Shown: positions 19,306 to 54,309 of the stretch, piece by piece
How positions within the stretch are numbered: the stretch's first letter is position 1
How the letters are laid out: every line of letters starts with the position of its first letter
Made by a program: the position numbers and the translations under genes
The notes under the pieces: model-generated
The model's input: the letters and a program-made list of their open reading frames with translations, nothing else
The model's database searches: none
What the model was told of the DNA's origin: nothing
NCBI RefSeq assembly: GCF_019175385.1
Contig: NC_083339.1
Location: 34,122,147 to 34,186,146, forward strand
Source: Lycium barbarum
Lineage: Eukaryota; Streptophyta; Magnoliopsida; Solanales; Solanaceae
Reading direction: 5' to 3'
DNA length: 64,000 nt

Positions 19306-22205
19306 TGTTATGTCCCGTAATTTCGCATAATTGGGAAATCTTGGAAATAATTAAGACTTGTGTGTTTTAAGGCAATATTTTGATTTTGGTTAATATGCCT
19401 ATGTTGTTTATGAAAAATATTGGTGTGGAATATGGAGGAAGTCCAAGGGCAAAAAAAAAAAAAAAATGGAATTTCGGAAATTACAAATGAAATCTCTAAC
19501 GAATTGGGCCAAGAAAAATTGGAAGAAAATTGAAGCCCAAATGCTAGGGGTGGCCGGCCAAGGATCCAAGGCCCAAGCCCCATTTTAAGTGGTCATGTGA
19601 GTTCCATGTGACCATATGAGCAAGATATATTCATGCTCATCTTTTACAATTTTCTAGAAAACCAAACAAACAAAAAAAAATTTTTGAAGAACACCTCAAA
19701 AGAGGCTCTCGGCCGAACCCTCCAAAACAAAAAAAAAAATACTCTAGCCTTGCTTTGATCCTAAAAATCTTGTTCTTCTTGTAATTGTAGTAAGTTCAAG
19801 ACGCTCTCCGACGGGATACAATTAGTTTAGCGAGAGAGCGACGTTTGCGGCAAGTCGTAATTTCAAGAAAAAGGTAAGATTTCTATGTTTTTATGTTATG
19901 GAATGGATATATATGTTATAGTGATTAGAGTTGCATGAAGATTATGGGATTGTGTTGTGTTGAGCATGGCCGTGTGTGTGTGTGAAGGGTGTGTTTGGCC
20001 GTGAGCCATGTGGTGTGGAAGGGGAGGTGAATTTGATTTTGTTTAGTTTGTTAGTTGCGTCGTTGTGGCATTTATGACGTAAATGAATGTTTAGCGAGTC
20101 GAATTGGCATTGAAAATGGTTGCGGGTTTTTATGGGAAATTATATGATTTTTGTATATTCTTATATAATTGTGGAAGCAAGACTTAAAATGCGGATTATG
20201 GTTGTTGTTAATAAATTTGGAAGGAAATAATGCGAGTTAGTATGTTCGTCGTAGTTGTGGACGTTTTGAATAGAATATGGAAAGTAGCGGATTGCTTAAA
20301 TTAATGTATATCGCTTGGGATATTATTGGAATGTGTTTGAATAACTTTGAATGAGTAAAAGAATATGATAATGTTGATATTGGTTTGATGTTGTGAAGTT
20401 TGGAAGAAAGTTGTTGAATTATGTAGAAAGAAAGAATATTGACGTTAGAGTGATTTTGTTATGACTTGTGATGTTGTGACATTGTGGGTTGTTGTTGTTG
20501 TATATGGAGCCGAGCAAAGTCTCGGGGTGTTATATATATAGGGGAAATGCTGCCGAAATTTCGGTAGACAAAAATGAGGTTAAGTGAATTCTTAAGCCTC
20601 GAAATCCCTAATTGGCAACTTTGACCATTTGCAGATTCTGAGCGAAACGGGACTTGAGTTTTGGGCGAGCGTAAGACGCATATAAGGTATGTAAGGTTAC
20701 CCATTCCTTCTTTTGGCATGTCTTAGGTATACTAGGTCGATATTGGAGCCCCGAGGGAAATTCTATTCCTAGAAATCCGAATTGGGAATTTAGTATTATT
20801 CATTCAATTGAATTGAATTATAAAACTCATATTATATTGAAAAGTGATCTAATGTCCGAAACTTTTGTAAACGTAATCAAGTTGCCTGGAGACTTCCATG
20901 TATGATTCCATAGACCCCAAATGTCTGTGATTCATGTCCGCCACCTCGACTTGACCCGCGGTGGGCCCGCTAGCATCGAGACTTCTTTGTTTGCTCTATT
21001 ATGCCCATTGTTGTCTAATGTCGGCAAAACACATTTGGTTATGAATTTGGTTATCATAAAATAATGTTTGACTGCCACGATATTCTAAACTATATTTTGA
21101 ACCATAAATACTATGTTGGAAATACTTTTGTGAAACGAACCCCGTATTGACTAGTTATTCGAACTATTTGATTAATGAGTTAGCATATGATATTATCAAG
21201 TTTAAAAAGGTGTTTTGGCTTATAAGTTGCATTGTTTGCTCACGACTCCGCTCGTGCCCTTATTATGACTTCGTTCACCGGTTCCCGGGCCGGTTATGAT
21301 TCGTGCGCGATATGATAAATTCGGCCGTATGCTGTGTTACGGTTCCCGAGACCTCGCCATAGGGCCGGGTTCCGTTTGGAGTTATGTTGTGATATGGCTG
21401 GTGATATGTTATGCTGATATGTGTGCTCGGGGATGTACGGAGATTTGAACCTTCTGGTGTTATGCTATGTGTGGCACCAGCGTCGGAGTGGTGACCACAT
21501 TCCTGAGCTTTGCATGATTTTGTTTGCATTATGTATATATGGTTTTGATACAGATTTTGATATACTGTTCGGTATTTCCCCTTTGTATCCTGTTTGTTTT
21601 CAGTCGTGGCTCATATTTCTGTACTCTATGCTTTACATACTCAGTACATCTTTCGTACTGACCCCCTTTCTTCGAGGGCTGCGTTTCATGCCCGCGGGTA
21701 CAAACACAGGTGATCCATCGCTGTAGGCTCCACTTTCTGCTATTTCGGAGTACTCCCTTTTGATCCGGAGTCCACTTTTGGTACATACATCTTTTGTTAT
21801 GTATATATTTCTGTATATCTGACTATTTGGGTACGGCGGGGCCCTGTCTCGTCATATGATTCTGTCGGTCTGTTTAGAGGTCTGTGGACATGTTGTGGGT
21901 TGGGTCTTTCTGTACGGATGTGTGTATATGATGTGTTTGGGCGATCCCATTCGCGGCGGCGGCCGGTCCGCATATGTTTACATGTTGCCTTGTTGGCCGG
22001 TGTGGCCTTTGTTGGTATTTTCTGTGCGCAGGGTTATTTTGGATTGTCTGTAAAACAAAGGAAACTCTGCCGAAATTTTCTGAAAATTATCTAAATTTAG
22101 AATATAGCCTTGGCGGCTTCTGCTATATACTTGAATGCATTTGATAGATGGGTTTGGGTGCCCAGATCGGGCACTAGTCACGGCCTACGGGGTTGGGTCG
22201 TGACA
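19306..22205 (+). mobile_element. Tekay 5' LTR
   Basis: 2,900 bp, TGTTATGTCCC...GGTCGTGACA. Holds a TATATATATA core (20531-20540) followed by the palindrome CCGAAATTTCGG (20553-20564), a GGTATGTAAGG block (about 20686) and a hairpin-like CCCCC...GGGGG-type block in the U5 region (about 21660-21682, where one arm is GAGGG). An A-rich run at 19450 and a TG microsatellite at about 19974-19983 are also present. Short ORFs on either strand are not coding features; they recur in the 3' LTR only because the LTRs are duplicates. Confidence 0.95.
20531..20568 (+). promoter_or_regulatory. Tekay LTR core promoter and palindromic leader
   Basis: TATATATATA followed by GGGGAAATGCTGCC and the perfect 12-bp palindrome CCGAAATTTCGG (20553-20564). 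The same order recurs in the other Tekay-type LTRs of this window, which argues for function near the transcription start. Confidence 0.6.
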
Positions 22206-22209
22206 AAAG

Positions 22210-22222
22210 TGGTATCAGAGCA
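22210..22222 (+). promoter_or_regulatory. Primer binding site, tRNA-iMet type
   Basis: TGGTATCAGAGCA begins four bases after the 5' LTR end. It is complementary to the 3' end of plant initiator tRNA-Met and primes minus-strand synthesis in Tekay elements. Confidence 0.9.
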
Positions 22223-22408
22223 GTCTGTCCTCGGAATGTCTACAGGCCGTGTCTCGTAGAGTCTTGTTTATTGGTGTGTTGTGCACCACATCTATAAACA
22301 GGAGGCTACAGGGCATTTAGGGTGTTACCTTCTTTGGAATCTTAGATCGTGCGTTAGAACTGTGCTACTAGGATGATTTTGATCTGATTCGTTATTCTGT
22401 TTGCAGTG

Positions 22409-22744
22409 ATGCCTCCGAAGAAGGCAACGGTGGCCCAGAAGGGCAAGGCAGGGATGGCAGGCACTAGTCAGGCACAGCGAGTTACCCGGGCTCGTGTTTA
22501 TGATTTGCCCGAGGTTGTGCCCCATTCAGAGGGATCCGCTACACCACCACCGGCGGAGCCTAGAGCAGGTCCATCAGCAGCTCCAGGGGCCCGAGTACCC
22601 GCACCCGAGCCTCCAGCTCCTCAGCCAGGGGCGGAGGACAGGACACTGAGAGAGGCTGTGCAGTTATTGACCACACTGGTAGCGGGCAGGCTCGCAGACG
22701 CGGGCGGAGAGATGATGACGATGACGACAGGCGTGACAGCCTGA
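22409..22744 (+). pseudogene. gag: Tekay gag N-terminus, frameshifted
   Basis: Starts MPPKKATVAQ and runs as a Pro/Ala-rich N-terminal region of gag, ending at TGA 22742-22744. The real continuation lies in the next frame: from 22711 the frame of 22828-25539 reads [24 protein letters not shown], the normal entry to the gag core. A small indel just before 22711 therefore separates the two parts. The GTG at 22406 is not needed; ATG at 22409 fits the family. Confidence 0.8.
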
Positions 22745-25539
22745 GGGTTCGAGAGTTCCTATTATGTGGCCCTCCAGAGTTTTTCGGGTCTAAGCCCGAC
22801 GAGGACCCCCATGACTTTATTCGGGAGATGTGGCGCTCACTAGATTTGGTCAGGGCTTCAGAGACTGAGTCTATTGAGTTGGCTTCGCATAGACTACGGG
22901 ATGTTGCTGCTCACTGGTATGAGTCCTGGGAGCTATCCAGGGGTGAGGGTGCTACCCCAGCTACTTGGGACGAGTTTGTGACTGCTTTCACTCACCAATT
23001 TTTTCACCCAGAGTTACGGCGGGCGCGGGTTGACCGATTTTTGCATCTGCAGCAGAGGGGTCGGAGCGTCCGTGAGTATAATATGGAGTTTGATTCTTTG
23101 GCCCGGTATGCACCTGCCATAGAAGCAGATATGGCCGATCGGATGCACAGATACGTGATGGGGTTAGACCGCTATTTGATTAATGGCTGTATGGCGGTGG
23201 CATTGCAGACAGACATGGATATTGCCCGACTACAGGCTTATGCCCTGGGCATGGAGGACCGACATAGAGCTGATTATTCCAGCAGGGATCGGGACAGGAG
23301 GCAGCCCAAGAGGGCCAGATCCGCAGGTTATTCTGGATATTCTGGAGGCGGACAGCCTCAGCAGCAGCAGTCAGGCAGACATCCTCCTCCGTCAGGCCGG
23401 GGTACACAGCCAGCCGGTAGGAGATTTGACAGTGCAGGACCGTCTGGGGCCGGTCAGAGTTCCAGAGCGTCAGGTTCACAGGTAGCCAGAGGTCCCAGCC
23501 AGCCCAGACCACCCAGGCCCCGTTGTTCTCATTGCGGGAAATCACATCCCGGGGAGTGCTATCGAGTTACCGGAGCCTGTTTTTCATGCCGCGGTCAGGG
23601 CCATATTATGCGAGATTGTCCGTTGGCGAGCGGTTCCGGTAGTGTAGCTCAGCCGAAGGGATCAATCGCTGGTTCATCATCTGCTCCATCAGTTGCGCGC
23701 CCTGCGGGGCGAGGTATGCCGGCGGGATGCGGTCGAGGCCGTGGCACTGCTTCGGGTTCTAGCGGTCCCTCGAACCGCATATACGCATTGGCCAACCGCC
23801 AGGATCAGAAGGCTTCGCCGAATGTCGTCACAGGTACATTACTGGTTTTCTCCAGATCTGTATATGCACTGATTGATCCTGGTTCTACTTTATCATATAT
23901 TTCTCCGCTCGTTGCTAGTAAAATTGGGATAGTGTCTGAGCCTATAGAGCCATTTGAGGTAGCTACCCCGGTCAGGGATTGTATTATAGCGAGGCAGGTA
24001 TACATGGATTGTTTTGTGACTATATGTGATCGCTGCACTAAAGCTGATTTGATAGAATTAGATATGCTGGAATTTGATGTCATTATGGGTATGGACTGGT
24101 TGGCTTCCTGTTATGCTAATGTTGACTGCCTGAAAAAGGTAGTCCGTTTTCAGTTTCCAGGGGAACCAGTTATAGAGTGGTTCGGGTCTACAGCATCGCC
24201 GAGGGGTAAGTTTATTTCGTACCTCAAGGCTAAGAAGATAATTCAGAAAGGTTATATCTATCATTTGGTTCGGGTGCACGATACTATAGCCGAGACACCT
24301 ACTCTTCAGTCTGTTCCGGTTGTTAATGAGTTCCCAGATGTGTTTCCAGATGAGCTTCCGGGTCTTCCGCCTGAACGGGAGATAGATTTCACTATAGACT
24401 TGTTGCCAGATACGCAGCCTATATCTATTCCTCCGTACAGAATGGCACCGGATGAATTGAAGGAATTGAAAGAGCAATTGAAGGATCTGTTGGATAAAGG
24501 CTTTATCAGACCTAGCACATCACCCTGGGGAGCGCCGGTATTATTCGTAAGAAAGAAAGATGGGTCACTGCGAATGCGTATTGATTATCGGCAATTAAAT
24601 AAGGTGACTATAAAGAATAAATATCCCCTCCCCCGGATTGATGATTTGTTTGATCAGTTGCAGGGTTCCAAATATTTTTCAAAGATAGATTTGCGCTCGG
24701 GTTATCATCAGGTGCGAGTGCGAGAATCAGATATTCCGAAGACTGCTTTCAGGACCCGGTACGGGCATTATGAATTCAGAGTGATGTCTTTCGGCCTGAC
24801 TAATGCTCCAGCGGTATTCATGGATCTGATGAATCGGGTATTTCGGCCTTTCCTGGATATGTTCGTGATTGTGTTTATTGATGATATTTTGATTTATTCA
24901 CGATCAGCAGAGGAGCATTCAGATCATTTGAGAACAGTACTTGGCATTCTTCGGCAACAAAAATTTTATGCTAAATTTTCCAAATGTGAATTCTGGTTAA
25001 CTTCTGTGGCTTTCTTGGGGCATATTGTCAGAGCAGACGGTATTCGGGTCGATACGCAAAAAATTGAAGCTGTACAGAATTGGCCCAGGCCTACTACACC
25101 GACAGAGGTGCGCAGTTTTCTGGGGTTAGCCGGATATTATCGGAGGTTCGTGGAAAATTTTTCTTCTATTGCAGCACCACTGACGAAGCTTACTCAGAAA
25201 GCAGCGAAATTTCAGTGGACCGATGCCTGCGAGCACAGCTTTCAGATGTTGAAAGAAAAATTAATTACAACACCAGTATTAGCTCTTCCAGAAGGATCAG
25301 AAGGGTATGTTGTCTACTGTGATGCCTCTGGTATTGGGATAGGTTGCGTGTTGATGCAACACGGTCGAGTCATAGCCTATGCTTCCCGGCAGCTCAGACC
25401 GCACGAGAAGAATTATCCCACTCATGATCTCGAGTTAGCCGCGGTGATTCATGCTTTGAAGATTTGGCGGCATTATTTATATGGGGTCCACGTTGATATG
25501 TATACAGACCATAAGAGTCTCCAGTATATTTTTAAATAG
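22711..25539 (+). pseudogene. gag-pol: Tekay gag core, protease, RT and RNase H
   Basis: One open frame to TAG at 25537-25539. Residues counted from the Met at 22828: gag core about 1-150; a Gln/Ser/Gly/Pro-rich linker; [12 protein letters not shown] then the CCHC zinc knuckle [14 protein letters not shown] near 251; protease active site [13 protein letters not shown] near 347; RT with [31 protein letters not shown] and the catalytic FIDDILIYS near 685; RNase H from [16 protein letters not shown] near 830. The terminal TAG (after LQYIFK) replaces a CAG Gln codon, as FKQKELNLRQRRW is expected, so translation would stop inside RNase H. Confidence 0.92.
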
Positions 25540-27243
25540 AAAGAACTAAATTTGCGGCAGAGAAGATGGCTTGAGTTATTGAAAGACTATGACGTTGATA
25601 TCCTGTACCATCTTGGGAAAGCCAATGTGGTAGCAGATGCACTTAGCCGCAAGTCTATGGGCAGCTTGGCTGATGTACCACCTGGTAAGAAAGATTTAGT
25701 TCGTGAAATTCATCAGTTGGCCAACCTTGGAGTTCGTTTGGTAGATTCTGGAGATTCTGTGATTTCTGTCCGTGCAGTTGCTGAATCATCTATTATAGAA
25801 GAAGTAAAGCAGCGACAGTTTGAGGATCCTATTCTGGTTCAGTACAGAGATGTGGCTCTTAATAAAGAAAAGACTCCGTTTGAAATTTCGCCTGAAGGGG
25901 TATTATTATATGAAGGCAGATTCTGTGTACCGGATGTTGCAAGCTTACGACGACAAATCATGGGCGAGGCGCATAATGCACGATATTCTGTTCATCCTGG
26001 TTCCACTAAAATGTATCATGATCTCAGGTGCTTGTATTGATGGGACGGTATGAAGAAAGATATTGCCGAGTTAGTTAGTCAGTGCCCGAATTGTCAACAA
26101 GTTAAAATTGAACATCAGAAGCCCGGTGGGTTATTGCAGGAGATGGAAATTCCAGCCTGGAAATGGGAGATGATTAATATGGATTTCGTTGTTGGGTTAC
26201 CGCGCACTCCACGCCGGTATGATTCTATTTGGGTTATTGTTGACAGATTGACGAAATCAGCCCATTTTCTTCCGGTCCGGACTACTTATTCGGCTGAGGA
26301 CTATGCTAGATTGTATATCAGAGAGATAGTCAGACTACACGGAGTCCCTGTATCTATTATTACTGACCGAGGTGCCCAGTTTACAGCAAATTTCTGGAGG
26401 TCATTTCAGGAGGGATTAGGGACTCAGGTGAGCCTCAGTACAGCTTTTCATCCTCAGTCCGACGGGCAGGCCGAGCGCACTATTCAGACGCTGGAAGATA
26501 TGTTGCGGGCCTGCGTTATTGATTTCAGAGGCAGCTGGGATGATCATTTGCCGCTTATCGAATTTGCTTATAATAATAGTTATCACTCCAGCATCCAGAT
26601 GGCACCGTACGTAGCCCTTTATGGTAGGAAATGCAGATCTCCTATTGGTTGGTTCGATGTGGGCGAAACTAAATTAATTGGGCCAGATGTGATCCAGGAA
26701 GCAGTGGATAAAGTAAAACTTATTCGGGAGCGATTATTGGCTGCACAGAGTCGAAAGAAAGCATATGCAGACAGACGACGTCGACCATTAGAATTCCAGA
26801 TTGGCGACTGGGTATTTCTGAAGGTGTCGCCTATGATGGGTGTTATGAGATTCGGTAAAAAGGGTAAGTTAAGCCCGCGGTATATCGAGCCGTATCAGAT
26901 CATTCGGAAGATAGGCGAGGTCGCCTATGAGCTAGACTTACCATCCGATTTGGAGGCAGTGCACCCGGTATTTCATGTGTCCATGCTGCGAAAATGTATT
27001 GGTGATCCTTCCAGAATATTCCCAGTAGATGACATTCAGGTAACGGAGCATTTGTCTTATGAAGAGCAGCCTATAACTATTCTGGATCGGCAGGTCAGGA
27101 GACTACGTACTAAGGAAGTGCCTTCTGTTAAAGTCCTGTGGCGCAACAACAACCGGGAAGAAATGACCTGGGAGGCGGAGGATGAGATGAAGAAGAAATA
27201 CCCCCACTTATTTCCTACACCCACAGGGAATCTAAATTTTTAA
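25540..27243 (+). pseudogene. pol: Tekay RNase H end, integrase and chromodomain-like tail
   Basis: Same frame as the upstream pol. RNase H ends with the conserved KANVVADALSRK. The integrase zinc-binding part is HNARYSVHPGSTKMYHDL...CPNCQQVK, broken by TGA at 26038-26040 where TGG (Trp) is expected. The catalytic core has MDFVVGLPR, TDRGAQFTANFW and QAERTIQ with a D-35-E spacing between the last two acidic residues. The C-terminal part ends PVFHVSMLRKCIGD, then a chromodomain-like module VKVLWRNNNREEMTWEAEDEM (shortened here in part: key residues W, W, E). Chromodomain tails guide chromoviruses to heterochromatin. Ends at TAA 27241. Confidence 0.92.
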
Positions 27244-27360
27244 GTTTGTTGTGTTGATTGACGAATGAATTATGCGTGCTAATCATAAAGAGAGACTCCC
27301 CTGTTATGTTTATAAGACTAATTTAACATTCGGGGACGAATGTTCTAAAGGGGGGGAGAA
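27244..27360 (+). promoter_or_regulatory. Tekay 3' UTR with hairpin and polypurine tract
   Basis: Short 3' UTR. At 27325-27344 the arms AACATTCG and CGAATGTT flank the tetranucleotide GGGA, giving an 8-bp stem. It is followed by CTAAAGGGGGGGAGAA, the purine tract that primes plus-strand synthesis, directly against the 3' LTR at 27361. The same arrangement occurs at 45442-45477 in the short-cored element. Confidence 0.8.
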
Positions 27361-30262
27361 TGTTATCTCCCGTAATTTCGCATAATTGGGAAATCTTGGA
27401 AATAATTAAGACTTGTGTGTTTTAAGGCAATATTGTGATTTTGGTTAATATGCCTATGTTGTTTATGAAAAATATTGGTGTGGAATATGGAGGAAGTCCA
27501 AGGGCAAAAAAAAAAAAAAAAAAATTGGAATTTCGGAAATTACAAATGAAATCTCTAACGAATTGGGCCAAGAAAAATTGGAAGAAAATTGAAGCCCAAA
27601 TGCTAGGGGTGGCCGGCCAAGGAGCCAAGGCCCAAGCCCCATTTTAAGTGGTCATGTGAGTTCCATGTGACCATATGAGCAAGATATATTCATGCTCATC
27701 TTTTAGAATTTTCTAGAAAACCAAACAAACAAAAAAAAAATTTGAAGAACACCTCAAAAGAGGCTCTCGGCCGAACCCTCCAAAACAAAAAAAAAATACT
27801 CTAGCCTTGCTTTGATCCTAAAAATCTTGTTCTTCTTGTAATTGTAGTAAGTTCAAGACGATCTCCGACAGGATACAATTAGTTTAGCGAGAGAGCGACG
27901 TTTGCGGCAAGTCGGAATTTCAAGAAAAAGGTAAGATTTCTATGTTTTTATGTTATGGAATGGATATATATGTTATAGTGATTAGAGTTGCATGAAGATT
28001 ATGGGATTGTGTTGTGTTGAGCATGGCCGTGTGTGTGTGTGAAGGGTGTGTTTGGCTGTGAGCCATGTGGTGTGGAAGGGGAGGTGAATTTGATTTTGTT
28101 TAGTTTGTTAGTTGCGTCGTTGTGGCATTTATGACGTAAATGAATGTTTAGCGAGTCGAATTGGCATTGAAGATGGTTGCGGGTTTTTATGGGAAATTAT
28201 ATGATTTTTGTATATTCTTATATAATTGTGGAAGCAAGACTTAAAATGCGGATTATGGTTGTTGTTAATAAATTTGGAAGGAAATAATGCGAGTTAGTAT
28301 GTTCGTCGTAGTTGTGGACGTTTTGAATAGAATATGGAAAGTAGCGGATTGCTTAAATTAATGTATATCACTTGGGATATTATTGGAATGTGTTTGAATA
28401 ACTTTGAATGAGTAAAAGAATATGATAATGTTGATATTGGTTTGATGTTGTGAAGTTTGGATGAAAGTTGTTGAATTATGTAGAAAGAAAGAATATTGAC
28501 GTTAGAGTGATTTTGTTATGACTTGTGATGTTGTGACATTGTGGGTTGTTGTTGTTGTATATGGAGCCGAGCTAAGTCTCGGGGTGTTATATATACAGGG
28601 GAAATGCTGCCTAAATTTCGGTAGACAAAAATGAGGTTAAGTGAATTCTTAAGCCTTGAAATCCCTAATTGGCAACTTTGACCATTTGCAGATTCTGAGC
28701 GAAACGGGACTTGAGTTTTGGGCGAGCGTAAGACGCATATAAGGTATGTAAGGCTACCCATTCCTTCTTTTGGCATGTCTTAGGTATACTAGGTCGATAT
28801 TGGAGCCCCGAGGGCAATTCTATTCCTAGAAATCCGAATTGGGAATTTAGTATTATTCATTCAATTGAATTGAATTATAAAACTCATATTATATTGAAAA
28901 GTGATCTAATGTCCGAAACTTTTGTAAACGTAATCAAGTTGCCTGGAGACTTCCATGTATGATTCCATAGACCCCAAATGTCTGTGATTCATGTCCGCCA
29001 CCTCGACTTGACCCGCGGTGGGCCCGCTAGCATCGAGACTTCTTTGTTTGCTCTATTATGCCCATTGTTGTCTAATGTCGGCAAAACACTTTTGGTTATG
29101 AATTTGGTTATCATAAAATAATGTTTGACTGCCACGATATTCTAAACTATATTTTGAACCATAAATACTATGTTGGAAATACTTTTGTGAAACGAACCCC
29201 GTATTGACTAGTTATTCGAACTATTTGATTAATGAGTTAGCATATGATATTATCAAGTTTAAAAAGGTGTTTTGTCTTATAAGTTGCATTGTTTGCTCAC
29301 GACTCCGCTCGTGCCCTTATTATGACTTCGTTCACCGGTTCCCGGGCCGGTTATGATTCGTGCGCGATATGATAAATTCGGCCGTATGCTGTGTTACGGT
29401 TCCCGAGACCTCGCCATAGGGCCGGGTTCCGTTTGGAGTTATGCTGTGATATGGCTGGTGATATGTTATGCTGATATGTGTGCTCGGGGATGTACGGAGA
29501 TTTGAACCTTCTGGTGTTATGCTATGTGTGGCACCAGCGTCGGAGTGGTGACCACGTTCCTGAGCTTTGCATGGTTTTGTTTGCATTATGTATATATGGT
29601 TTTGATACAGATTTTGATATATTGTTCGGTATTTCCCCTTTGTATCCTGTTTGTTTTCAGTCGTGGCTCATATTTCTGTACTCTATGCTTTACATACTCA
29701 GCACATCTTTCGTACTGACCCCCTTTCTTCGGGGGCTGCGTTTCATGCCCGCAGGTACAGACACAGGTGATCCATCGCTGTAGGCTCCACTTTCTGCTAT
29801 TTCGGAGTACTCCCTTTTGATCCGGAGTCCACTTTTGGTACATACATCTTTTGTTATGTATATATTTCTGTATATCTGACTATTTGGGTACGGCGGGGCC
29901 CTGTCCCGTCATATGATTATGTCGGTCTGTTTAGAGGTCTGTGGACATGTTGTGGGTTGGGTCTTTCTGTACGGATGTGTGTATATGATGTGTTTGGGCG
30001 ATCCCATTCGCCGCGGCGGCCGGTCCGCATATGTTTACATGTTGCCTTGTTGGCCAGTGTGGCCTTTGTTGGTATTTTCTGTGCGCAGGGTTATTTTGGA
30101 TAGTCTGTAAAACAAAGGAAACTCTGCCGAAATTTTCTGAAAATTATCTAAATTTAGAATATAGCCTTGGCGGCTTCTGCTATATACTTGAATGCATTTG
30201 ATAGATGGGTTTGGGTGCTCAGATCGGGCACTAGTCACGGCCTACGGGGTTAGGTCGTGACA
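27361..30262 (+). mobile_element. Tekay 3' LTR
   Basis: 2,902 bp, TGTTATCTCCC to GGTCGTGACA. Near-identical to 19306-22205 with scattered substitutions, for example in the leader, where the palindrome reads CTAAATTTCGG instead of CCGAAATTTCGG (about 28610), and a longer A-run at about 27507. The U5 hairpin block reads CCCCCTTTCTTCGGGGG here, a perfect 5-bp stem. Confidence 0.95.
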
Positions 30263-39589: not shown

Positions 39590-40618
39590 ATGAATCAAAA
39601 TCAGCAGAATCAGCGTGCTGGTAATCAGGTAAATCGGTTGAACAATCAAGCGAATGAATCCGATGATGAGAATATTTCTGCTGAACTGGTTCAAGAGGAG
39701 GACTATGCATCTGCTATTATTCAACCTCGAGTTGGAGCGGCTACTGTGAAAATTGACTCATCTCTTTACCAGCTGTTGAAACTTGAGGGGTACTTTCGGA
39801 ACTCCACCGAGAATGACCCTCAACGTCATTTGCAGAATTTTGTGGATGTGTGTGCTAATCACATCCAGAAAAATATTCCACAAGATGATATTCGGTTGAG
39901 GTTATTCAAGTATTCCTTAGCTGGAGAGGCAAGAACATGGTTCGAAAAGCTGCCCCGAAACTCGATTACTTCATGGGCAGAGATGGTAGCTATTTTTCTT
40001 ACAAAGTGGTACCCCCCTAGCAAGAAGGCTGAGATTCGCGACAAGATATATGAATTCAAGCAGCGACCGGGGGAAAAACTATATGAAGCCTGGGAGAGGT
40101 TCAAAGAGTATTTGCAGAAGAGCCTGAATCATGGTTTTCCGGAAAATATATTGATGGAGAAGTTCTACCGAGGGTTAGATCCAGTGACACAGTTAGTAGC
40201 TAACAACGCAGTTGATGGGTGTTTTATGAACAAGACCTTTCGACAAGTGACCACCATACTCAACAAGCTGACAATTCATAATCAGGCTTGACACTCAAAC
40301 AATGCTGATGTGGTACCGTATGGTAGTGCTATGCTCCAGAATATAGTGAAGGAGAATCAGGATACCCAGCAAACATTGGCAGAACTTGCAACAAATATTT
40401 CCTTGCTGACGAAGAAGTTCGATGAATCTCAAATCAAAAAAGTAAATGTTTGTGAGGATGATGTAGTTTTGCCAAAAGGGATGTACCATGCTCAAGATGG
40501 TCCGTTCCTTGATGGGCCACCTATGCAGGTTGAAGATGCCAATTATGTTAATAACTCTCAAGGGGGTTATCAAAGATAAAATTACCAAGGTGGCTATCAA
40601 AATCAGAACCAATGGAGA
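39590..40618 (+). pseudogene. gag: Athila gag, N-terminal part
   Basis: Probable start MNQNQQNQRAG at 39590. The retrotransposon-gag core is intact from about 39770: ENDPQRHLQNFVDVCANH, LFKYSLAGEARTWFEKLP, then FLTKWYPPSKKAEIRDKI and FPENILMEKFYRGLD. A TGA at 40289 stands where TGG fits, and a TAA at 40577 where CAA fits. After these the frame continues through a Gly/Tyr/Gln/Asn-rich region to the insertion point at 40623. Confidence 0.88.
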
Positions 40619-40623
40619 CCTCA

Positions 40624-43600
40624 TGTTATATCCCGTATTTTTGAACGTCAGATTATTTGCTGAGGTGGGACCCACACATCGAGATTTTTTTTGGGACATC
40701 TAAAACAAATTCATATGAATCACATATGAGAAGTAAAACACGACTCAAGAAGGACCCTTGGGCCAAATCAAAGTGGAAGTCCTCCAAACGAATATTTTTA
40801 AGAAAACGTTTTCGGGTGATCTGACTTCAAGCGGAAAAAACGGTATTATAAGTTTGGAATTTGGAAGAGTACCAAGATATAGAGGTTGTAGATAATTGAA
40901 TTAGCTTTCCAACCATAGGTCGTGGGTCCCCAGGTGACGTCGGTACAAGGAGATATGGACGTTTTAAGGTCGAAAGGTTAGTGGGCTAGGCCCAACTCGG
41001 GACCAACCGGGTTGGCCCAAACAAATCAAAAAAATAATAATAAGGCCCAATTTTGTGAGGGATGGCCGGCCAACATGGCCCAAGCCCATGATTTTATTAA
41101 TTATCCATGTGATAATTAATATAAAGGATCAATTAATGAGTCATATCTCATTAGAAACTTCAAGAACACTTGAGAAAAAGGAAAGAAGGAGAAATCTCCA
41201 AGGCCATTTCGGCCAAGTGCAAAAATTGACAACAATTTCTTCAAAAAAAAATTTCTACCAATTAAAGGATTCCTAGCAAGGTGAAGTGGTCTTTGGAGCA
41301 AGAAAAATTCATATTCTAGCAAGTTGCAAGACTTAGCTAAGTGAAAGATCAGGGAAGAAGGTAAGAACTTATTCTTTACATGTTATGGATATTTTTGCAT
41401 GTTGTAGTGTGAAAAAGTGAGTGAAATTCATGAATAGCAAGAATATAGTTGTGTGGCGGTGAGTTGTATATCACATGTATAGCCGTGTATATTTGGTGAA
41501 TCATGAATGCATGGTGAGCATGTTTTATTTAGTATGTTGGTTGTTGTGTTGTGGATTTTATATTGCAAACAAAAGCCTAATGAGCTTAGTGAAGTATTAG
41601 TAGTTGGAGGCTTGTCTTGGAAGATTATGTAAATTGAATATTATGTTCTTACATGTATGGAAGATAATGATATTAGTATGGTGTTGTTGGAATATATATA
41701 TTATGAGGTTGTTATTGTTTTCATTGGAGTTGGAAGGTTTTGAAAGAAGTAGTAAGTTGATTAAGTTGTTATAACGTATCTTGGATTGAATATGGAAATT
41801 GTTAGTGTGGTTGAGTTATGTTATAGTTTGGTCGGGTTTGAATTCCCGGGTTGTTGTTGATTGAAAACTTGCTAGGTAAATGTTGAGGATGGTGTATTTA
41901 CAGAGCAAATGCTGCCGAAATTTCGGTAGCCAAGTGTTTCCTTAAGATTCTAACTCTAAGTACCCTAATGAAAGTTTGGGTAAATGTGACCAAATCGCAG
42001 ATTTTGGCGGATTTGCAGCTTGAATTCGGAATAGCAAAAGAAGCGGAAAGAGGTATGTAAGGCTTCACCCTTCTTTCTATGGCATGTCTTAGTTGAAATA
42101 AGTTGGGTACGAGCCTCGGGGACAACTCGGTTCCCCGGAATCCGCACCTAAAGTTTTCCACTTTTTGTTCAATAGAATTGAACTAGAAAGTGTGCCAATT
42201 GTTGGAAAAACCTCCTACACCCTTAGAACTTGTATAAATGGGACCCGATTACCCTAAGACCCTCACAAGTAACGCTATGACACGTAACATACGTAAATCG
42301 TATATGCTACCTCATCCGGCCCGAGGTGGGCCAGCTACTCTCGGATTTTTCCTTACAGTCTTGCTTGACTTACTTGAAGTGAATCCAAAGGGAACCTTTG
42401 ATCCCGATTTCGTTACCAAATGATAAATACTATGACTCCTCTAACGAGGGCACTTCCATGACGATAATGATAACAATGATGTTAGATAAGAGAATATGCC
42501 TATGATACGTACTACCGGAACAACTCTATGACTAATATGACTAAGCTAAGTATCTTATGTAAACATGAAAATGATAAACTAATTTTTGAATATTATTTAT
42601 ATTTCCTAGCTATGACTTTATTTTCTAAAAGATTTCAAAGTCTATGAACTGTCATCTATGATGCTCCGATTTCATTCTACGTTTACTTTAATATTATTCC
42701 CCGTTGATAGTCTCACCTTAAAATACTCGTTCCTTCAAGGTGAGAAAGAGCGATCACGAGTGTTCTATAATATAATTGGAGGTCACCGACCTTACGTCAC
42801 TCCGATGACTACATGATTCTTCTTTGGGCTTTCCTGCGTGCCTATGAGACATATGTATATAGGATACGTAAATGCATATAAGACATGTAAATGTATGTAA
42901 GATATGTGTATATATTTTTAAAATATGCACATGACGAAAGAGCTAGAGCGGTATAGACGCTGATACATGCACATGACACACGTATATGTATATGATAAAA
43001 GAGCTAGAGCGCTATAGACGTTGATATATGTACATGATATATGCATATGTATACGGGGGAAATGGAGGTAAGGGCAGAGCGTTATGAACGCATATCCACC
43101 TGATCAGTTGGCATTACATGATATGATATCGTCCCGGACGCGGGATGCCCAGACGCGGGATGTGTATATTTATGGTTAAATGGATCGGCTGCCGACGCCT
43201 CGGCAATATGAGATGTCCTATTTTATATGTATATGTATATGAACAAGGAAAGATTCTTAAAGGAAAGCTAAGTACGCATAGCACCTGCCAAGGATATATA
43301 TATATACAGGTTATGTTTTTACCTCAGGACATGTGCTATTATCCTCTTATGTCGTTATTTCCGTTTTATACTTTCTGTATGCTACTATTCATGCCTTACA
43401 TACTCGGTACACTATTCATACTGACGTTCCTTCTTGTGGACGCTGCGTTTCATGCCGCGCAGGTCAGCAGACAGGCGGATTTGATCCTTAGAAGCCTTAC
43501 CAGCAGTGTTGACAGCGCTCCAGTTGTTCCGGAGCCCTACTTTCGTGGTACTATTTTGTGTATGTATTTTCGGGCACGACAGTACTCGACCCTTTCTATG

Positions 43601-43869
43601 TATAAGTGTACTATGTCTAGAGGCTCGTAGACAGATATGTACAGTCAGTCAGGTACAGTTAGATATATGGTGTTCTAGCATGTTAATGTTGTTGTAGAAA
43701 GTGATAATTAAGTTGACTAGTCTATGCTCATAATGATGCTGCTAATGTTCAAAAACAAAAATATGGCACAGTTCATACGGCCTGCTAAGAGGAAAAAGTA
43801 AAAGGATAAGCAAGGGGTGCTCGGTACAAGTATCGGGTACTCGTCACGGCCCCTAGGCGGGTCGTGACA
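40624..43869 (+). mobile_element. LARD-like element 5' LTR
   Basis: 3,246 bp. Contains the leader palindrome CCGAAATTTCGG (41915-41926), GGTATGTAAGGCTTCACCC at about 42050, and two tandem copies of a roughly 65-68 bp unit with AAAGAGCTAGAGCG (about 42937-43035). A 161-codon ORF at 43145-43630 recurs in the 3' LTR but has no recognisable domain and lies in U5, so it is not annotated as a gene. Confidence 0.93.
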
Positions 43870-43873
43870 GAAG

Positions 43874-43886
43874 TGGTATCAGAGCA
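43874..43886 (+). promoter_or_regulatory. LARD-like element primer binding site (tRNA-iMet)
   Basis: TGGTATCAGAGCA starts four bases after the LTR end, at the same spacing as in the Tekay element at 22210. Confidence 0.9.
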
Positions 43887-44070
43887 GTTCGGTCCTAGGA
43901 GTTTGTCTACGAGCCGTGTCCAGTAGAGTCTTGTTTATGGGTGTGTTGCGCGCCACACTTATAAACAGGAGGCTACAGGGCATTTAGGAAATATGAACTT
44001 CCTTGTATTCTAAGATCGTGCGATAGAGCTATGCTACCAGGCTTCTACATTCCTTTCCTAATCCTATGCT

Positions 44071-44700
44071 ATGGTTTCAGTACTGTCGATGAAGAGATCA
44101 GCTTCAGATGATGGGGGCACCAGTAAGGCCCCTAGAGTATCTCCAGAGCCGAGTAGGGGGAGCCTCGGCTATTCGATTGAGTCAGACCCGTCAGAGGACC
44201 CAGCCACAACTCCTCCGGATTTCCTGACTCCCAGAGCGGAGGATCCCGCGGAGGACAGCTATGATACGGATCCGTCAGAGGACCCAGCGACAATTCCTCC
44301 AGAGATTCTGACCCCTAGAGCAGGGGACTCCACAGACAGTGGCTATGATACAGATCCCTCAGAGGATTCGACGATGACTCCCCCGGAGCTTCTTACCTCC
44401 AGGGAGGAGGATAGTTATGGCACAGACCCGTCAGAGCACTCTTCTGGGATGACGGATGAGGAGGCTTCCGGGGGTACGCCAGTTACTCCCGTGATGGAGG
44501 ACCGTGCCAGTCCGGCCACCTCGGAGAGTGCTACGGATTTCTCCTGTCCCTTGTTTCGGCCATCAGAGAACCAGGAATCACCGCTATTCTCTTCGGATTC
44601 TGACGTGAGAAATGACGAGGGTCGGGCGAGCGATGAGCAGACAGACGAGAATGAAGAATATACTTCACATGGTAGTTCCCCGGGCCAGGCTCGAGATTGA
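44071..44700 (+). CDS. Acidic repeat protein of a non-autonomous LTR element, unknown function
   Basis: 209 codons, intact, ending TGA at 44698. A second Met (MKRSAS, 44089) is an equally good start. The product is rich in Asp, Glu, Ser, Pro and Thr. Residues 39-125 hold four copies of a repeat starting DPSED or DPSEH at residues 39, 67, 95 and 119 (28, 28 and 24 residues apart), with a PATTPPDFLTPRA-type middle. A short basic N-terminus (KRS...KAPR) precedes it. No gag core, zinc knuckle, membrane segment or protease motif is seen. It sits where gag would start, just after the primer site, and is the only ORF of the element. It may be a diverged gag N-terminal linker, or a non-coding leftover; I do not recognise a family. 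Confidence 0.55.
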   Translation: MVSVLSMKRSASDDGGTSKAPRVSPEPSRGSLGYSIESDPSEDPATTPPDFLTPRAEDPAEDSYDTDPSEDPATIPPEILTPRAGDSTDSGYDTDPSEDSTMTPPELLTSREEDSYGTDPSEHSSGMTDEEASGGTPVTPVMEDRASPATSESATDFSCPLFRPSENQESPLFSSDSDVRNDEGRASDEQTDENEEYTSHGSSPGQARD

Positions 44701-45477
44701 TCGACTACAAGTATATGAGATTTTCTTTAAAACTTTCTATGTATACGTAACCTCTGCAGGAATACTAATTAATAACGGCAGGTAGAAATTCAAAAAGGGG
44801 TCAAAGATTTAACGGTTATAAGTAATGGCGACTGAGATGTCCCCGCCACCAGTGTGAATTTAGAAACCCCGGTAAAAGATAGTTATATGTATGGATAGGA
44901 GTAAATAGCGAAGATTTAAGCAGAGGCAATATGGTAGTTGTATGGTTAGGAAAGTGAAGATAAGAGCGGGACCCGCCGTGAGGACGTTTGGGGAGCTGTT
45001 GGAACCCCGACTTACTTTAAATAATGTGACAAAGGTCGTATGGGGCAGTCGGTAAAATTACACCAGCGTTCACGCATTAAAATGCACCAGAGTTTCAAGG
45101 TTAAGCGTGCTAGGGTGAGAGCAATCTCAGGATGGGTGACCCCCTGGGAAATATGCTGAAATTTTCACAAATGTGGGAACAAGAGACGAATGTGAAGCTA
45201 GGTAGTCCAATGTAAATTAGAGTGTGTGGAGTGGTTACAAACCCTATAAAAGTCATGTAGGCTGAGACGGACAAGACTAACGGAAGAGGAGAAAGCATGA
45301 CAGAAAGGGGACTTATTAACGTAGGGCCAACGTTCAGAGCTTACTCAATGGACTTACGACATAAAAGCGACCTAAGCGACATGCGAGATGTCTACGAAGG
45401 AGACCTCCCCGAAGTATTATGATACACTATGAGGCCAGTTTAACATTCGAGGACGAATGTTCTAAAGGGGGGGAGAA
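44701..45477 (+). other. Non-coding 3' part of the LARD-like core
   Basis: No reading frame of note. It ends with the hairpin arms AACATTCG (45442-45449) and CGAATGTT (45454-45461) around AGGA, and the purine tract AAAGGGGGGGAGAA to 45477. Both closely match the Tekay 3' end at 27325-27360. The rest holds nothing I recognise; it may be scrambled remains of pol or unrelated captured DNA. Confidence 0.7.
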
Positions 45478-48400
45478 TGTTATATCCCGTATTTTTTAAC
45501 GTCAAATTATTTGCTGAGGTGGGACCCACACATCGAGATTTTTTTTGGGACATCTAAAACAAATTCATATGAATCACATATGAGAAGTTAAACACAACTC
45601 AAGAAGGACCCTTGGGCCAAATCAAAGTGGAAGTCCTCCAAACGAATATTTTTAAGAAAACGTTTTCGGGTGATCTGACTTCAAGCGGCAAAAACGGTAT
45701 TATAAGTTTGGAATTTGGAAGAGTACCAAGATATAGAAGTTGTAGATAATTGAATTAGCTTTCCAACCATAGGTCGTGGGTCCCCAGGTGACGTCGGTAC
45801 AAGGGGATATGGACGTTTTAAGGTCGAAAGGTCAGTGGGCTAGGCCCAACTCGGGACCAACCGAGTTGGCCCAAAAAAATCAAAAAAATAATAATAAGGC
45901 CCAAATTTGTGAGGGATGGCCGGCCAACATGGCCCAAGCCCATGATTTTATTAATTATCCATGTGATAATTAATATAAAGGATCAATTAATGAGTCATAT
46001 CTCATTAGATACTTCAAGAACACTTGAGAAAAAGGAAAGAAGGAGAAATCTCCAAGGCCATTTCGGCCAAGTGCAAAAATTGACAAAAATTTCTTCAAAA
46101 ATTATTTTCTACCAATTAAAGGATTCCTAGCAAGGTGGAGTGGTCTTTGGAGCAAGAAAAATTCATATTCTAGCAAGTTGCAAGACTTAGCTAAGTGAAA
46201 GATCAGGGAAGAAGGTAAGAACGTATTCTTTACATGTTATGGATATTTTTGCATGTTGTAGTGTGCAAAAGTGAGTGAAATTCATGAATAGCAAGAATAT
46301 AGTTGTGTGGCAGTGAGTTGTATATCACATGTATAGCCGTGTATATTTGGTGAATCATGAATGCATGGTGAGCAAGTTTTATTTAGTATGTTGGTTGTTG
46401 TGTTGTGGATTTTATATTGCAAACAAAAGCCTAATGAGCTTAGTGAAGTATTAGTAGTTGGAGGCTTGTCTTGGAAGATTATGTAAATTGAATATTATGT
46501 TCTTACATGTATGGAAGATAATGATATTAGTATGGTGTTGTTGGAATATATATATATTATGAGGTTGTTATTGTTTTCATTGGAGTTGGAAGGTTTTGAA
46601 AGAAGTAGTAAGTTGATTAAGTTGTTATAATGTATCTTGGATTGAATATGGAAATTGTTAGTGTGGTTGAGTTATGTTAATAGTTTGGCCGGGTTTGAAT
46701 TCCCGGGTTGTTGTTGATTGAAAACTTGCTAGGTAAATGTTGAGGATGGTGTATTTACAGAGGAAATGCTGCCGAAATTTCGGTAGCCAAGTGTTTCCTT
46801 AAGATTCTAACTCTAAGTACCCTAATGAAAGTTTGGGTAAATGTGACCAAATCGCAGATTTTGGCGGATTTGCAGCTTGAATTCGGAATAGCAAAAGAAG
46901 CGGAAAGAGGTATGTAAGGCTTCACCCTTCTTTCTATGGCATGTCTTAGTTGAAATAAGTTGGGTACGAGCCTCGGGGACAACTCGGTTCCCCGGAATCC
47001 GCACCTAAAGTTTTCCACTTTTTGTTCAATAGAATTGAACTAGAAAGTGTGCCAATTGTTGGAAAAACCTCCTACACCCTTAGAACTTGTATAAATGGGA
47101 CCCGATTACCCTAAGACCCTCACAAGTAACGCTATGACACGTAACATACGTAAATCGTATATGCTACCTCATCCGGCCCGAGGTGGGCCCGCTACTCTCG
47201 GATTTTTCCTTACAGTCTTGCTTGACTTACTTGAAGTGAATCCAAAGGGAACCTTTGATCCCGATTTCGTTACCAAATGATAAATACTATGACTCCTCTA
47301 ACGAGGGCACTTCCATGACGATAATGATAACAATGATGTTAGATAAGAGAATATGCCTATGATACGTACTACCGGAACGACTCTATGACTAATATGACTA
47401 AGCTAAGTATCTTATGTAAACATGAAAATGATAAACTAATTTTTGAATATTATTTATATTTCCTAGCTATGACTTTATTTTCTAAAAGATTTCAAAGTCT
47501 ATGAACTGTCATCTATGATGCTCCGATTTCATTCTACGTTTACTTTAATATTATTCCCCGTTGATAGTCTCACCTTAAAATACTCGTTCCTTCAAGGTGA
47601 GAAAGAGCGATCACGAGTGTTCTATAATATAATTGGAGGTCACCGACCTTACGTCACTCCGATGACTACATGATTCTTCTTTGGGCTTTCCTGCGTGCCT
47701 ATGAGACATATGTATATAGGATACGTAAATGCATATAAGACATGTAAATGTATGTAAGATATGTGTATATATTTTTAAAATATGCACATGACGAAAGAGC
47801 TAGAGCGCTATAGACGCTGATACATGCACATGACACACGTATATGTATATGATAAAAGAGCTAGAGCGCTATAGACGTTGATATATGTACATGATATATG
47901 CATATGTATACGGGGGAAATGGAGGTAAGGGCAGAGCGTTATGAACGCATATCCACCTGATCCGTTGGCATTACATGATATGATATCGTCCCGGACGCGG
48001 GATGCCCGGACGCGGGATGTGTATATTTATGGTTAAATGGATCGGCTGCCGATGCCTCGGCAATATGAGATGTCCTATTTTATATGTATACGTATATGAA
48101 CAAGGAAAGATTCTTAAAGGAAAGCTAAGTACGCATAGCACCTGCCAAGGATATATATATATACAGGTTATGTTTTTACCTCAGGACATGTGCTATTATC
48201 CTCTTATGTCGTTATTTCCGTTTTATACTTTCCGTATGCTACTATTCATGCCTTACATACTCGGTACACTATTCGTACTGACGTCCCTTCTTGTGGACGC
48301 TGCGTTTCATGCTGCGCAGGTCAGCAGACAGGCGGATTTGATCCTTAGAAGCCTTACCAGCAGTGTTGACAGCGCTCCAGTTGTTCCGGAGCCCCACTTT

Positions 48401-48726
48401 CGTGGTACTAATTTGTGTATGTATTTTCGGGCACGACAGTACTCGACCCTTTCTATGTATAAGTGTACTATGTCTAGAGGCTCGTAGACAGATATGTACA
48501 GTCAGGCAGGTACAGTTAGATATATGGTGTTCTAGCATGTTAATGTTGTTGTAGAAAGTGATAATGAACTTGACTAGTCTATGCTCATAATGATGCTGCT
48601 AATGTTCAAAAACAAAAATATGGCACAGTTCATACGGCCTGCTAAGAGGAAAAAGTAAAAGGATAGGCAAGGGGTGCTCGGTACAAGTATCGGGTACTCG
48701 TCACGGCCCCTAGGCGGGTCGTGACA
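45478..48726 (+). mobile_element. LARD-like element 3' LTR
   Basis: 3,249 bp, near-identical to 40624-43869. Differences are scattered, such as an extra T in the opening TTTTTT run and an extra AT in a TA run at about 46545. The leader palindrome is at 46772-46783. Confidence 0.93.
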
Positions 48727-48731
48727 CCTCA

Positions 48732-53190: not shown

Positions 53191-54291
53191 TTGGTCACCA
53201 CCGCCGTGCCGCGACGTTAAATCAAGCGCTTCTTGGGAGGCAACCCGAGTGTAATGTTTATTTTTCTTTTGATTTTTTTATGACATATAGGGTAATGGTT
53301 GTTTTGGTGCAGGAACAGATCACAGAAAAATTCTACTGAAAAGCAGGTAAGTTCAGTTGTAAGACACTGTTTAGCAACATTGCAACATACGCCTGAAGTT
53401 TACGGACCGTATTTCACTATACGGCCCGTAAACCAGGGCATATTTAACATTGTTACCAAACAGTGAGCACTGTAAGTAACATGCTAGTTTACGACCATGG
53501 AGGACGGACCGTATTTCACAATACGGTCCGTAAACCTGATCGTAAACTAACATGCAACATTGCAGTGTTCTGCCCTCATCAACTACTCTAAATCCGGGTT
53601 GTAAACTATTTTACGGACCGTATTTAGAGATATAAAAAAAACAAATTAAAGCAGCGGTTTAAATATAACCCACACGATTTAAATCAAGGGCAGAAGAACC
53701 AAACACCCCATCGACTTCCCTCCATTACTTCTCCTTTCACCTTCACGTCTCCCTCCAAAACTCCCCTCATCCCAAATGGGTTGGAGGGCATTCCATACTT
53801 TAAATTTCAATATTTGAAGTTTTGGTCTGCCTACCAATAACTTGAGTCTTGTGGGAATTATGCAAAATTTGTAGAAAATGGGTGAAGTCTGAGTAACCTA
53901 ATCCCCGAACACAAATGTGAAACCGAGATGTGAAATGAAATTTTGAAATCAGAATATGTATGTCTGTGGTGCGAAATACGACTGCACTTTATGGACCGTA
54001 TTTCAATTTACGGCCCGTATTTAAGCATGTAAGTGGACAGAATGTTATCCAAAAGGAATCCCAATTTACGATCTAACTTTACGGTCCGTATTTTAGTTTA
54101 CGGTCCGTATTTAAGATTACAGGATGGGACAGAATGTTATCCACTACAAATGCTCAGTTTACGATCGTACTTTATGGACCGTAAACCAGTTTACGGTCCG
54201 TCTTTTGTGTTTACGACCTAAGACAAAACAAATATTTTGTGCATAGTCAAACTATCTTATCTTTGGTTGGATTTTCCATGGTAACTAATAT
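53191..54291 (+). other. Athila spacer with TACGGWCCGTA copies
   Basis: Non-coding between pol and the third ORF. It carries about eleven full or near copies of the palindromic 11-mer, again mostly in pairs about 19 bp apart: at 53401 and 53420, around 53511 and 53530, 53613, 53994 and 54011, 54079 and 54098, 54175 and 54192. Some are decayed (TATGG or CGGCCCG). A pyrimidine-rich run follows at the end of the region. Confidence 0.8.
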
Positions 54292-54307
54292 GTGGTGTCT
54301 TTTGCAG
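54292..54307 (+). promoter_or_regulatory. Possible splice acceptor before the third Athila ORF
   Basis: GGTGTCTTTTGCAG ends at 54307 and the next bases contain the likely start ATG of the third ORF (54310). Downstream ORFs in env-position are often expressed from spliced RNA in LTR elements. Only the acceptor is visible; no donor was identified. Confidence 0.4.
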
Positions 54308-54309
54308 GA

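Follow-up and report, generated by a model that had tools for sequence, protein, structure and literature searches.

The 8.1-kb element at positions 40624 to 48726 of a 64,000-nucleotide stretch of Lycium barbarum DNA (C3:34122147-34186146, hereafter the window) is a member of a large lineage of long terminal repeat (LTR) elements in Lycium that comprises at least five structural types. Patterns of sequence variation show that the single open reading frame (ORF) of the lineage was maintained as a protein by natural selection while the types diversified. They also show that four of the five types keep, 3′ of the ORF, a stretch derived from 5S rRNA whose A and C boxes are nearly fixed. On balance, we regard the lineage as non-autonomous parasites of Tekay-type chromoviruses that keep one selected acidic protein and, mostly, the 5S-derived stretch.

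Element and lineage

The window element is a non-autonomous LTR retrotransposon, with paired LTRs, a 5-bp target site duplication, a primer binding site (PBS), a polypurine tract and no gag-pol (Table 1). An earlier reading of the locus from its letters (the sequence-only reading) had described a perfect CCTCA duplication, a 3.25-kb LTR pair, the primer site, the polypurine tract and a core of 1.6 kb in which gag and pol are missing, and direct reading confirmed all of these. The core spans 43870-45477 (1,608 nt), and ORF 44071-44700 is open and is, as had been stated, the only one in it (sense strand, at least 60 aa from ATG). The two LTRs are 98.7% identical, with 20 transitions, 21 transversions and 3 gap events. 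Their Kimura two-parameter distance is 0.0127, calculated with the 3′ LTR one base short, and at substitution rates of 1.3e-8 and 7e-9 the insertion would be 0.5 to 0.9 million years old.

The same core recurs in the 1.67-Gb genome. The 40 best of 8,089 first-look candidates, which were scored, are the window copy and 39 other places, each with the complete or almost complete core at 95% or more; the window element is therefore not a product of chance. Protein searches with three family members as queries, in which the best 150 of 4,630, 5,116 and 4,561 candidates were scored, listed different subfamilies. We distinguish five types, each read in one to a few copies. Type A, the window element, has LTRs of 3.25 kb, a core of 1.61 kb and an ORF of 203 aa; the corresponding values for type B (L072) are 3.06 kb, 3.04 kb and 193 aa. 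Type C (L093) has a core of 2.47 kb, an ORF of 136 aa and LTRs of about 4.2 kb, the latter inferred from a 6.7-kb repeat period. Types D and E were read from the ORF region to the 3′ LTR: the polypurine tract follows a 193-aa ORF by about 2.1 kb in type D (L077/L094) and lies within about 1.3 kb of the ORF in type E (L075/L095 and L102).

The order PBS, leader, ORF, non-coding sequence, polypurine tract and 3′ LTR is common to types A, B and C, and types D and E are alike from the ORF on. With the window's own Tekay and Athila pieces as tblastn queries, no gag-pol was detected in the cores of types A, B and C or between the ORF and the 3′ LTR of types D (L094) and E (L095, L102); the best E value was 0.77 and the positive control matched at 100%. 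The sequence-only reading had allowed that longer relatives might show the ORF to be the first part of a normal gag-pol. No such relative was found, as all five types run from the ORF to the polypurine tract and the 3′ LTR.

Some copies are rearranged. The type C copy L071 has an insertion in its core, 3′ of the ORF: at about 1393-4374 lies a solo LTR from a different Tekay-like family. Tandem LTR-core-LTR-core arrays of up to five units occur at C6:117332525-117342217, C1:63206113-63221227, C4:110524902-110537092 and C1:47245108-47262847, as judged by matches about 4.4-6.1 kb apart; part of the C4 array was read (L072).

Selection on the open reading frame and its product

We aligned 40 cores (L001-L040, window included) and derived from them a set of 33 copies, the window among them, by leaving out the array duplicates L009, L013, L026, L028, L030, L031 and L039. 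Private ORF variants in the 33 copies comprise 87 nonsynonymous (N) and 37 synonymous (S) changes, with an omega of about 0.9, at the neutral expectation, whereas the N/S count of variants present in four or more copies is 7/19, with an omega of about 0.14 (Fisher p 8e-5). In all 40 copies the counts are 82/38 for private and 9/19 for shared variants (p 9e-4). Private variants mostly arose after insertion; shared ones passed through transposition. The shared ORF variants number 3, 4 and 19 at the three codon positions (19 of 26 at the third), and those of the untranslated regions show no phase (7, 4 and 7 on the 5′ side; 10, 12 and 12 on the 3′ side).

Selection was also estimated between types. 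Of 20 open ORFs collected, one was dropped as a duplicate, and 16 of the remaining 19 were taken as representatives; no open ORF came from pieces L076 and L083. By the Nei-Gojobori method (NG86), 116 of the 120 pairs were usable, with a synonymous rate (dS) that was defined and above 0.05. The median ratio of nonsynonymous to synonymous rates (dN/dS) was 0.31, and the ratio was below 1 in all 116 usable pairs, as compared with 1.20 and 0.88 in wrong-frame controls. Two of the four near-identical pairs that were left out gave 0.65 and 0.86.

A few observations detract from the case for selection. Variants found in two or three copies look neutral (15 N and 6 S in the 33 copies; 23 N and 7 S in the 40), and pooling them with the shared class brings p to 0.007 and 0.097, respectively. 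The between-type ORFs were picked as open, and their pairs are not independent.

We set aside the intactness of the ORF as evidence for selection. The frame is open in 31 of the 40 copies and, by an eye count, in all but 35 of about 150 best-scoring rows of a protein search. Random breakage, an outcome that the sequence-only reading had named as damaging to its proposal, was not seen, as 27 of the 33 copies keep at least 203 aa. However, the copies are young and the protein-search list is ranked by score, so that youth alone would explain open ORFs. With about four private ORF substitutions per copy, and stops making up 9 of 133 in the 33 copies, most ORFs would still be open without selection.

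The predicted product starts with a sequence that we take to resemble a bipartite nuclear localization signal (NLS): M-K-R, a spacer and then a K-A-P-R core, with K before it in most cases and S in the window copy. Downstream come one to several DPSED repeats, and then a C-terminal part that is conserved. Since M-K-R is invariant in 19 aligned sequences and the preceding MVSVLS is not, the true start is probably the second ATG, at 44089, rather than the one at 44071. The DPSED/H motifs of the window copy are indeed spaced by 28, 28 and 24 residues, and its protein is acidic, as had been noted, with a net charge of -36 and a computed pI of 4.05, the floor of the routine. AlphaFold2 returned no confident fold for 19 sequences (mean predicted local distance difference test score, pLDDT, 51; predicted template modelling score, pTM, 0.10), as would be expected for a protein that is predicted to be disordered. 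The NLS-like pattern is a likeness of motif, not proof of nuclear entry.

The protein has no Pfam match up to E 10. A search with a family profile, restricted to the 7,993 candidates with the most words in common, yielded 28 homologues; the 15 that are named all belong to Lycium ferocissimum or L. barbarum, and the other 13 lie on contigs of 548-1,616 nt. This suggests that a set of uncharacterized Lycium gene models, one of them RPB1-like, are retrotransposon genes.

Two features of individual sequences were noted. In some B and E copies (L073, L074, L075) the open frame reaches upstream of MKR, where a peptide recurs, FWE(I/V)(V/I)SDP..AGDCR, also tied to gene models P0004, P0010, P0013 and P0023; this may be an N-terminal extension or an exon that lies upstream. 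P0010, a Lycium ferocissimum model named DNA-directed RNA polymerase II subunit RPB1-like, appears to have a Tekay pol fragment fused to the ORF. It is probably a misannotation and may be a gene-prediction join across neighbours.

The 5S-derived stretch and the Tekay relatives

Outside the ORF the core is not mere filler, as it contains a 5S rRNA-like stretch that was absent from the first account of the locus. A host 5S gene from the C6 array (L092), used as a query, matches window positions 45100-45150 at 86% (E 4.7e-12) and L072 at 74% over 102 nt (E 1.3e-12), with no other match at E<1 within the window, Tekay element included. The A box GTTAAGCGTGCT and the C box AGGATGGGTGACCCCCTGGGAA of the window copy are identical to those of the host gene. 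Eight of the nine downstream pieces that were fetched, from types A, B, D and E, contain the stretch, the exception being of type C. Across 11 element sequences, 29 of the 32 box columns are invariant, as against 28 of 113 elsewhere (p 1e-11); the departures are single changes in L020, L098 and L102 and one extra C in L094. A run of at least four T comes next in 9 of 12 sequences.

Exact matches to the pattern CAAT-N5-C box, which is lacking in the host 5S gene, number 5,013 genome-wide; not all of them need be whole elements, and a reversed control gives none. Within the range of C1 for which box matches were listed, we checked six ORF matches: the exact box lies 425 or about 795 nt downstream in four and is missing in two. 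Of five type C ORF matches in that range, none has the box nearby.

The window also holds a gag-pol element, which we assign to the Tekay chromovirus lineage from the look of its gag-pol sequence and take as a relative of the presumed helper. Its frame shifts close to the start of gag, and pol has stops at 25537-25539 and 26038-26040. All comparisons with Tekay were made with this one element. Its sequence after the PBS is 83% identical to the leader of type A (171 nt) and 86-90% to those of types B and C, the last approximately 50 nt of the LTR included; the leaders of types A and B are 79% identical to each other. The last 40-71 nt ahead of the 3′ LTR are 83-91% identical among the types and Tekay, and type A matches 27311-27361 at 90% over its last 51 nt, counted through the first base of the LTR. 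The LTRs are more diverged: type B matches the Tekay LTR at about 70% over 1.7 kb, type A in patches of 66-78% only, and the start of the type E LTR at about 75%. Conserved ends with diverged LTRs would fit dependence on one kind of helper, as far as one Tekay element can tell. On the other side of the balance, no helper is tied to any type by near-identical LTRs, and the assignment to Tekay rests on the leader, the polypurine end and diverged LTR similarity.

Table 1. Features of the window discussed in the text
Feature	Position	Strand	Remarks
Tekay-type gag-pol element	19306..30262	+	LTRs (2.9 kb) at 19306-22205 and 27361-30262, 98.6% identical; no part of the finding
Target site duplication CCTCA, left copy	40619..40623		Perfect 5-bp match with right copy
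5′ LTR, TGTTATATCCCG...CGTGACA	40624..43869	+	3246 nt; 98.7% identical to 3′ LTR
PBS, TGGTATCAGAGC	43874..43885	+	Read directly; presumably Met-type
5′ leader common with the Tekay element of the window	43871..44041	+	83% over 171 nt to window 22207-22372
Conserved ORF	44089..44700	+	203 aa from MKR (209 aa from ATG 44071), C terminus TSHGSSPGQ; basic NLS-like N terminus, acidic DPSED repeats
5S rRNA-derived stretch	~45050..45170	+	A box 45100-45111; C box 45129-45150; TTTT 45162-45165
Polypurine tract ahead of 3′ LTR	45464..45477	+	Read directly
3′ LTR	45478..48726	+	3249 nt; pairs with 5′ LTR
Target site duplication CCTCA, right copy	48727..48731		Perfect 5-bp match with left copy

The element is nested in the gag of an older element that we take to be of Athila/Tat type. 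When the flanks are joined, the frame of this host element continues over the insertion site, with a stop in the left flank about 15 codons before it. Within the same gag, positions 40032-40137 of the minus strand match Rfam snoR71 at 42.6 bits, over a cut-off of 40, probably by chance. A 717-aa open frame lies at 54289-56442, 3′ of Athila-type pol frames.

Explanations and comparison with known elements

Elements without gag-pol are usually taken as passive passengers or debris, and a lineage with a selected gene speaks otherwise: its copies are very numerous, its LTRs fall into several types and one gene is under selection, which indicates that such a parasite can own a gene worth keeping. 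This raises the question of how selection acts on one copy among many. Selection on a gene of a non-autonomous element requires a product that helps mainly its own copy, either because few copies are active or because the product works in cis on the RNA or the locus it came from. The lineage offers a natural setting in which cis preference of plant LTR elements can be tested.

A Tekay helper would supply reverse transcription, particle formation and integration in trans, and would recognize the common primer-site leader and polypurine end. The element itself would contribute transcription, the step out of reach of a helper with different LTRs. Its acidic protein may enter the nucleus and act on the chromatin of the few active copies, by anti-silencing or by activation, and the 5S boxes may recruit factors of the TFIIIA/TFIIIC type as an auxiliary promoter or a boundary. 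If few copies are active at once, a transcribed copy also makes the protein, and selection would therefore have a hold on a single copy. We propose this role in transcription or silencing escape, together with factor recruitment by the 5S boxes, as a tentative claim. Also speculative is the broader picture of a two-part parasite, one that would borrow Gag-Pol from chromoviruses and own a nuclear regulatory protein under cis selection as well as an internal 5S-type RNA polymerase III (pol III) region. If that picture is true, transcription, not the replication enzymes, is what the element keeps for itself.

Other explanations of the ORF were weighed against this role. The protein could be an adaptor for packaging or trafficking that acts in cis, binding its own RNA or the helper Gag and so favouring its own genome in helper particles. 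We hold this to be possible but rather doubtful, even though it would directly explain selection on single copies and the ORF adjoins the leader common with Tekay. The sequence-only reading had likewise suggested that the family kept a protein that helps its RNA to be packaged; the variant patterns and dN/dS bear out the keeping of a protein, and the sequence neither demonstrates nor hints at packaging, because the product is strongly acidic, has a basic NLS-like N terminus and, in the six copies counted, contains no more than two cysteines, hence no zinc knuckle. The predicted disorder and the lack of a Pfam match likewise speak against such an adaptor. As the enzymes would come from the helper, we favour transcription or silencing escape, itself tentative, over packaging. 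It is unlikely that the ORF is common with an undetected autonomous master family on which selection acts, the copies being deletion derivatives. Such a master would account for the low dN/dS without cis action, and P0010 joins an apparent Tekay pol fragment to the ORF; the search for an autonomous ORF-bearing element, which covered the five types and the best 40 to 150 candidates per genome search, leaves some room for it and in that respect tells against our reading. However, types A, B and C differ in LTRs and core lengths and yet have the same order, types D and E are the same from the ORF on, the stretches read contain no gag-pol, and independent deletions would hardly produce one common plan; P0010, for its part, may be the join across neighbours mentioned above. 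The second suggestion of the sequence-only reading, that the ORF is the remains of a variable gag N terminus, was rejected as very improbable. The ORF does sit directly after the leader, but it resembles neither the Tekay nor the Athila gag of the window, its dN/dS is low, its conserved C-terminal part is followed by a stop (a few copies run on for some residues), and five types share it without gag-pol.

The proposed role of the 5S boxes meets an alternative of its own, namely that the founder acquired a 5S-derived insertion of which the stretch is a passive fossil, not a working promoter, a reading to which we give some weight without adopting it. The full-length Rfam 5S matches of the window copy (25.6 bits, E 0.08) and of L072 (26.5 bits, E 0.07) are under the cut-off of 38. 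Within type A, the density of shared variants in the stretch equals or exceeds that of the flanks, and the stretch is absent from both type C pieces tested (one downstream piece and L093). Two further points argue in the same way against an active region: it lies about 1.2 kb inside the core, and no covariation of RNA structure was found, 0 of 17 predicted pairs being changed on both sides. Seeming covariation in a small hairpin between the boxes was dismissed, as it is out of register between types. Against a fossil, the boxes are nearly fixed across types, as described for Cassandra in parts of PMC10853983.

The mobility machinery of the lineage is ordinary. In the literature searched (open-licence PMC papers), we found no description of the ORF, in agreement with the sequence-only reading, which knew of no family with it, nor of a long LTR element whose core contains a 5S stretch, and the combination of a selected ORF with such a stretch appears, on this basis, not to be described for any element.

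With Tekay (Del) chromoviruses, the window element shares the leader, the PBS and the polypurine end. The lineage differs from them in having no gag-pol, chromodomain integrase included; moreover, the ORF is unrelated to the Tekay proteins of the window, and the 5S stretch is absent from that element. TR-GAG elements, which keep gag, are similarly non-autonomous with one ORF kept, but the ORF studied here has no Pfam match and is unlike the window's gags. Large retrotransposon derivatives (LARDs) have the same LTRs, PBS, polypurine tract, long core, absence of gag-pol and many copies. The window element has the long LTRs and long core of a LARD, and may be mobilized in trans. However, LARDs are described in a portion of PMC7215508 as encoding no protein products, and the core of this lineage is not non-coding, as it keeps a selected protein gene. 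Retand elements of the plant Gypsy type (TRP28) have extra ORFs of possible regulatory role, and some of them are non-autonomous, according to part of PMC11963269. Those ORFs are antisense, lie between pol and the 3′ LTR and have a probable DNA-binding domain, whereas the ORF of the Lycium lineage is in sense orientation, at the position of gag, acidic and predicted to be disordered.

The closest parallels to the 5S-derived stretch are found in terminal-repeat retrotransposons in miniature (TRIMs) with a pol III promoter. As far as portions of PMC10886601 and PMC10853983 describe them, these elements measure about 0.3-1.3 kb, have the small-RNA sequence in their LTRs and encode no proteins. 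Helenus carries a tRNA-derived sequence; Cassandra and Ajax are, like the window element, non-autonomous LTR elements with a 5S rRNA-derived stretch. Cassandra has fixed A and C boxes with free sequence between them (PMC10853983, in part), the same contrast of conserved boxes and variable intervening sequence as observed here. LTR-core tandem arrays, which are reported for Cassandra, occur in both. The difference is one of place: the 5S sequence of Cassandra and Ajax lies in the LTR, whereas in the Lycium lineage it lies 3′ of the ORF in the core of elements of 8-9 kb (types A and B). The lineage has a 5S-derived region within the core of a long element, beyond the short TRIMs for which we found it described.

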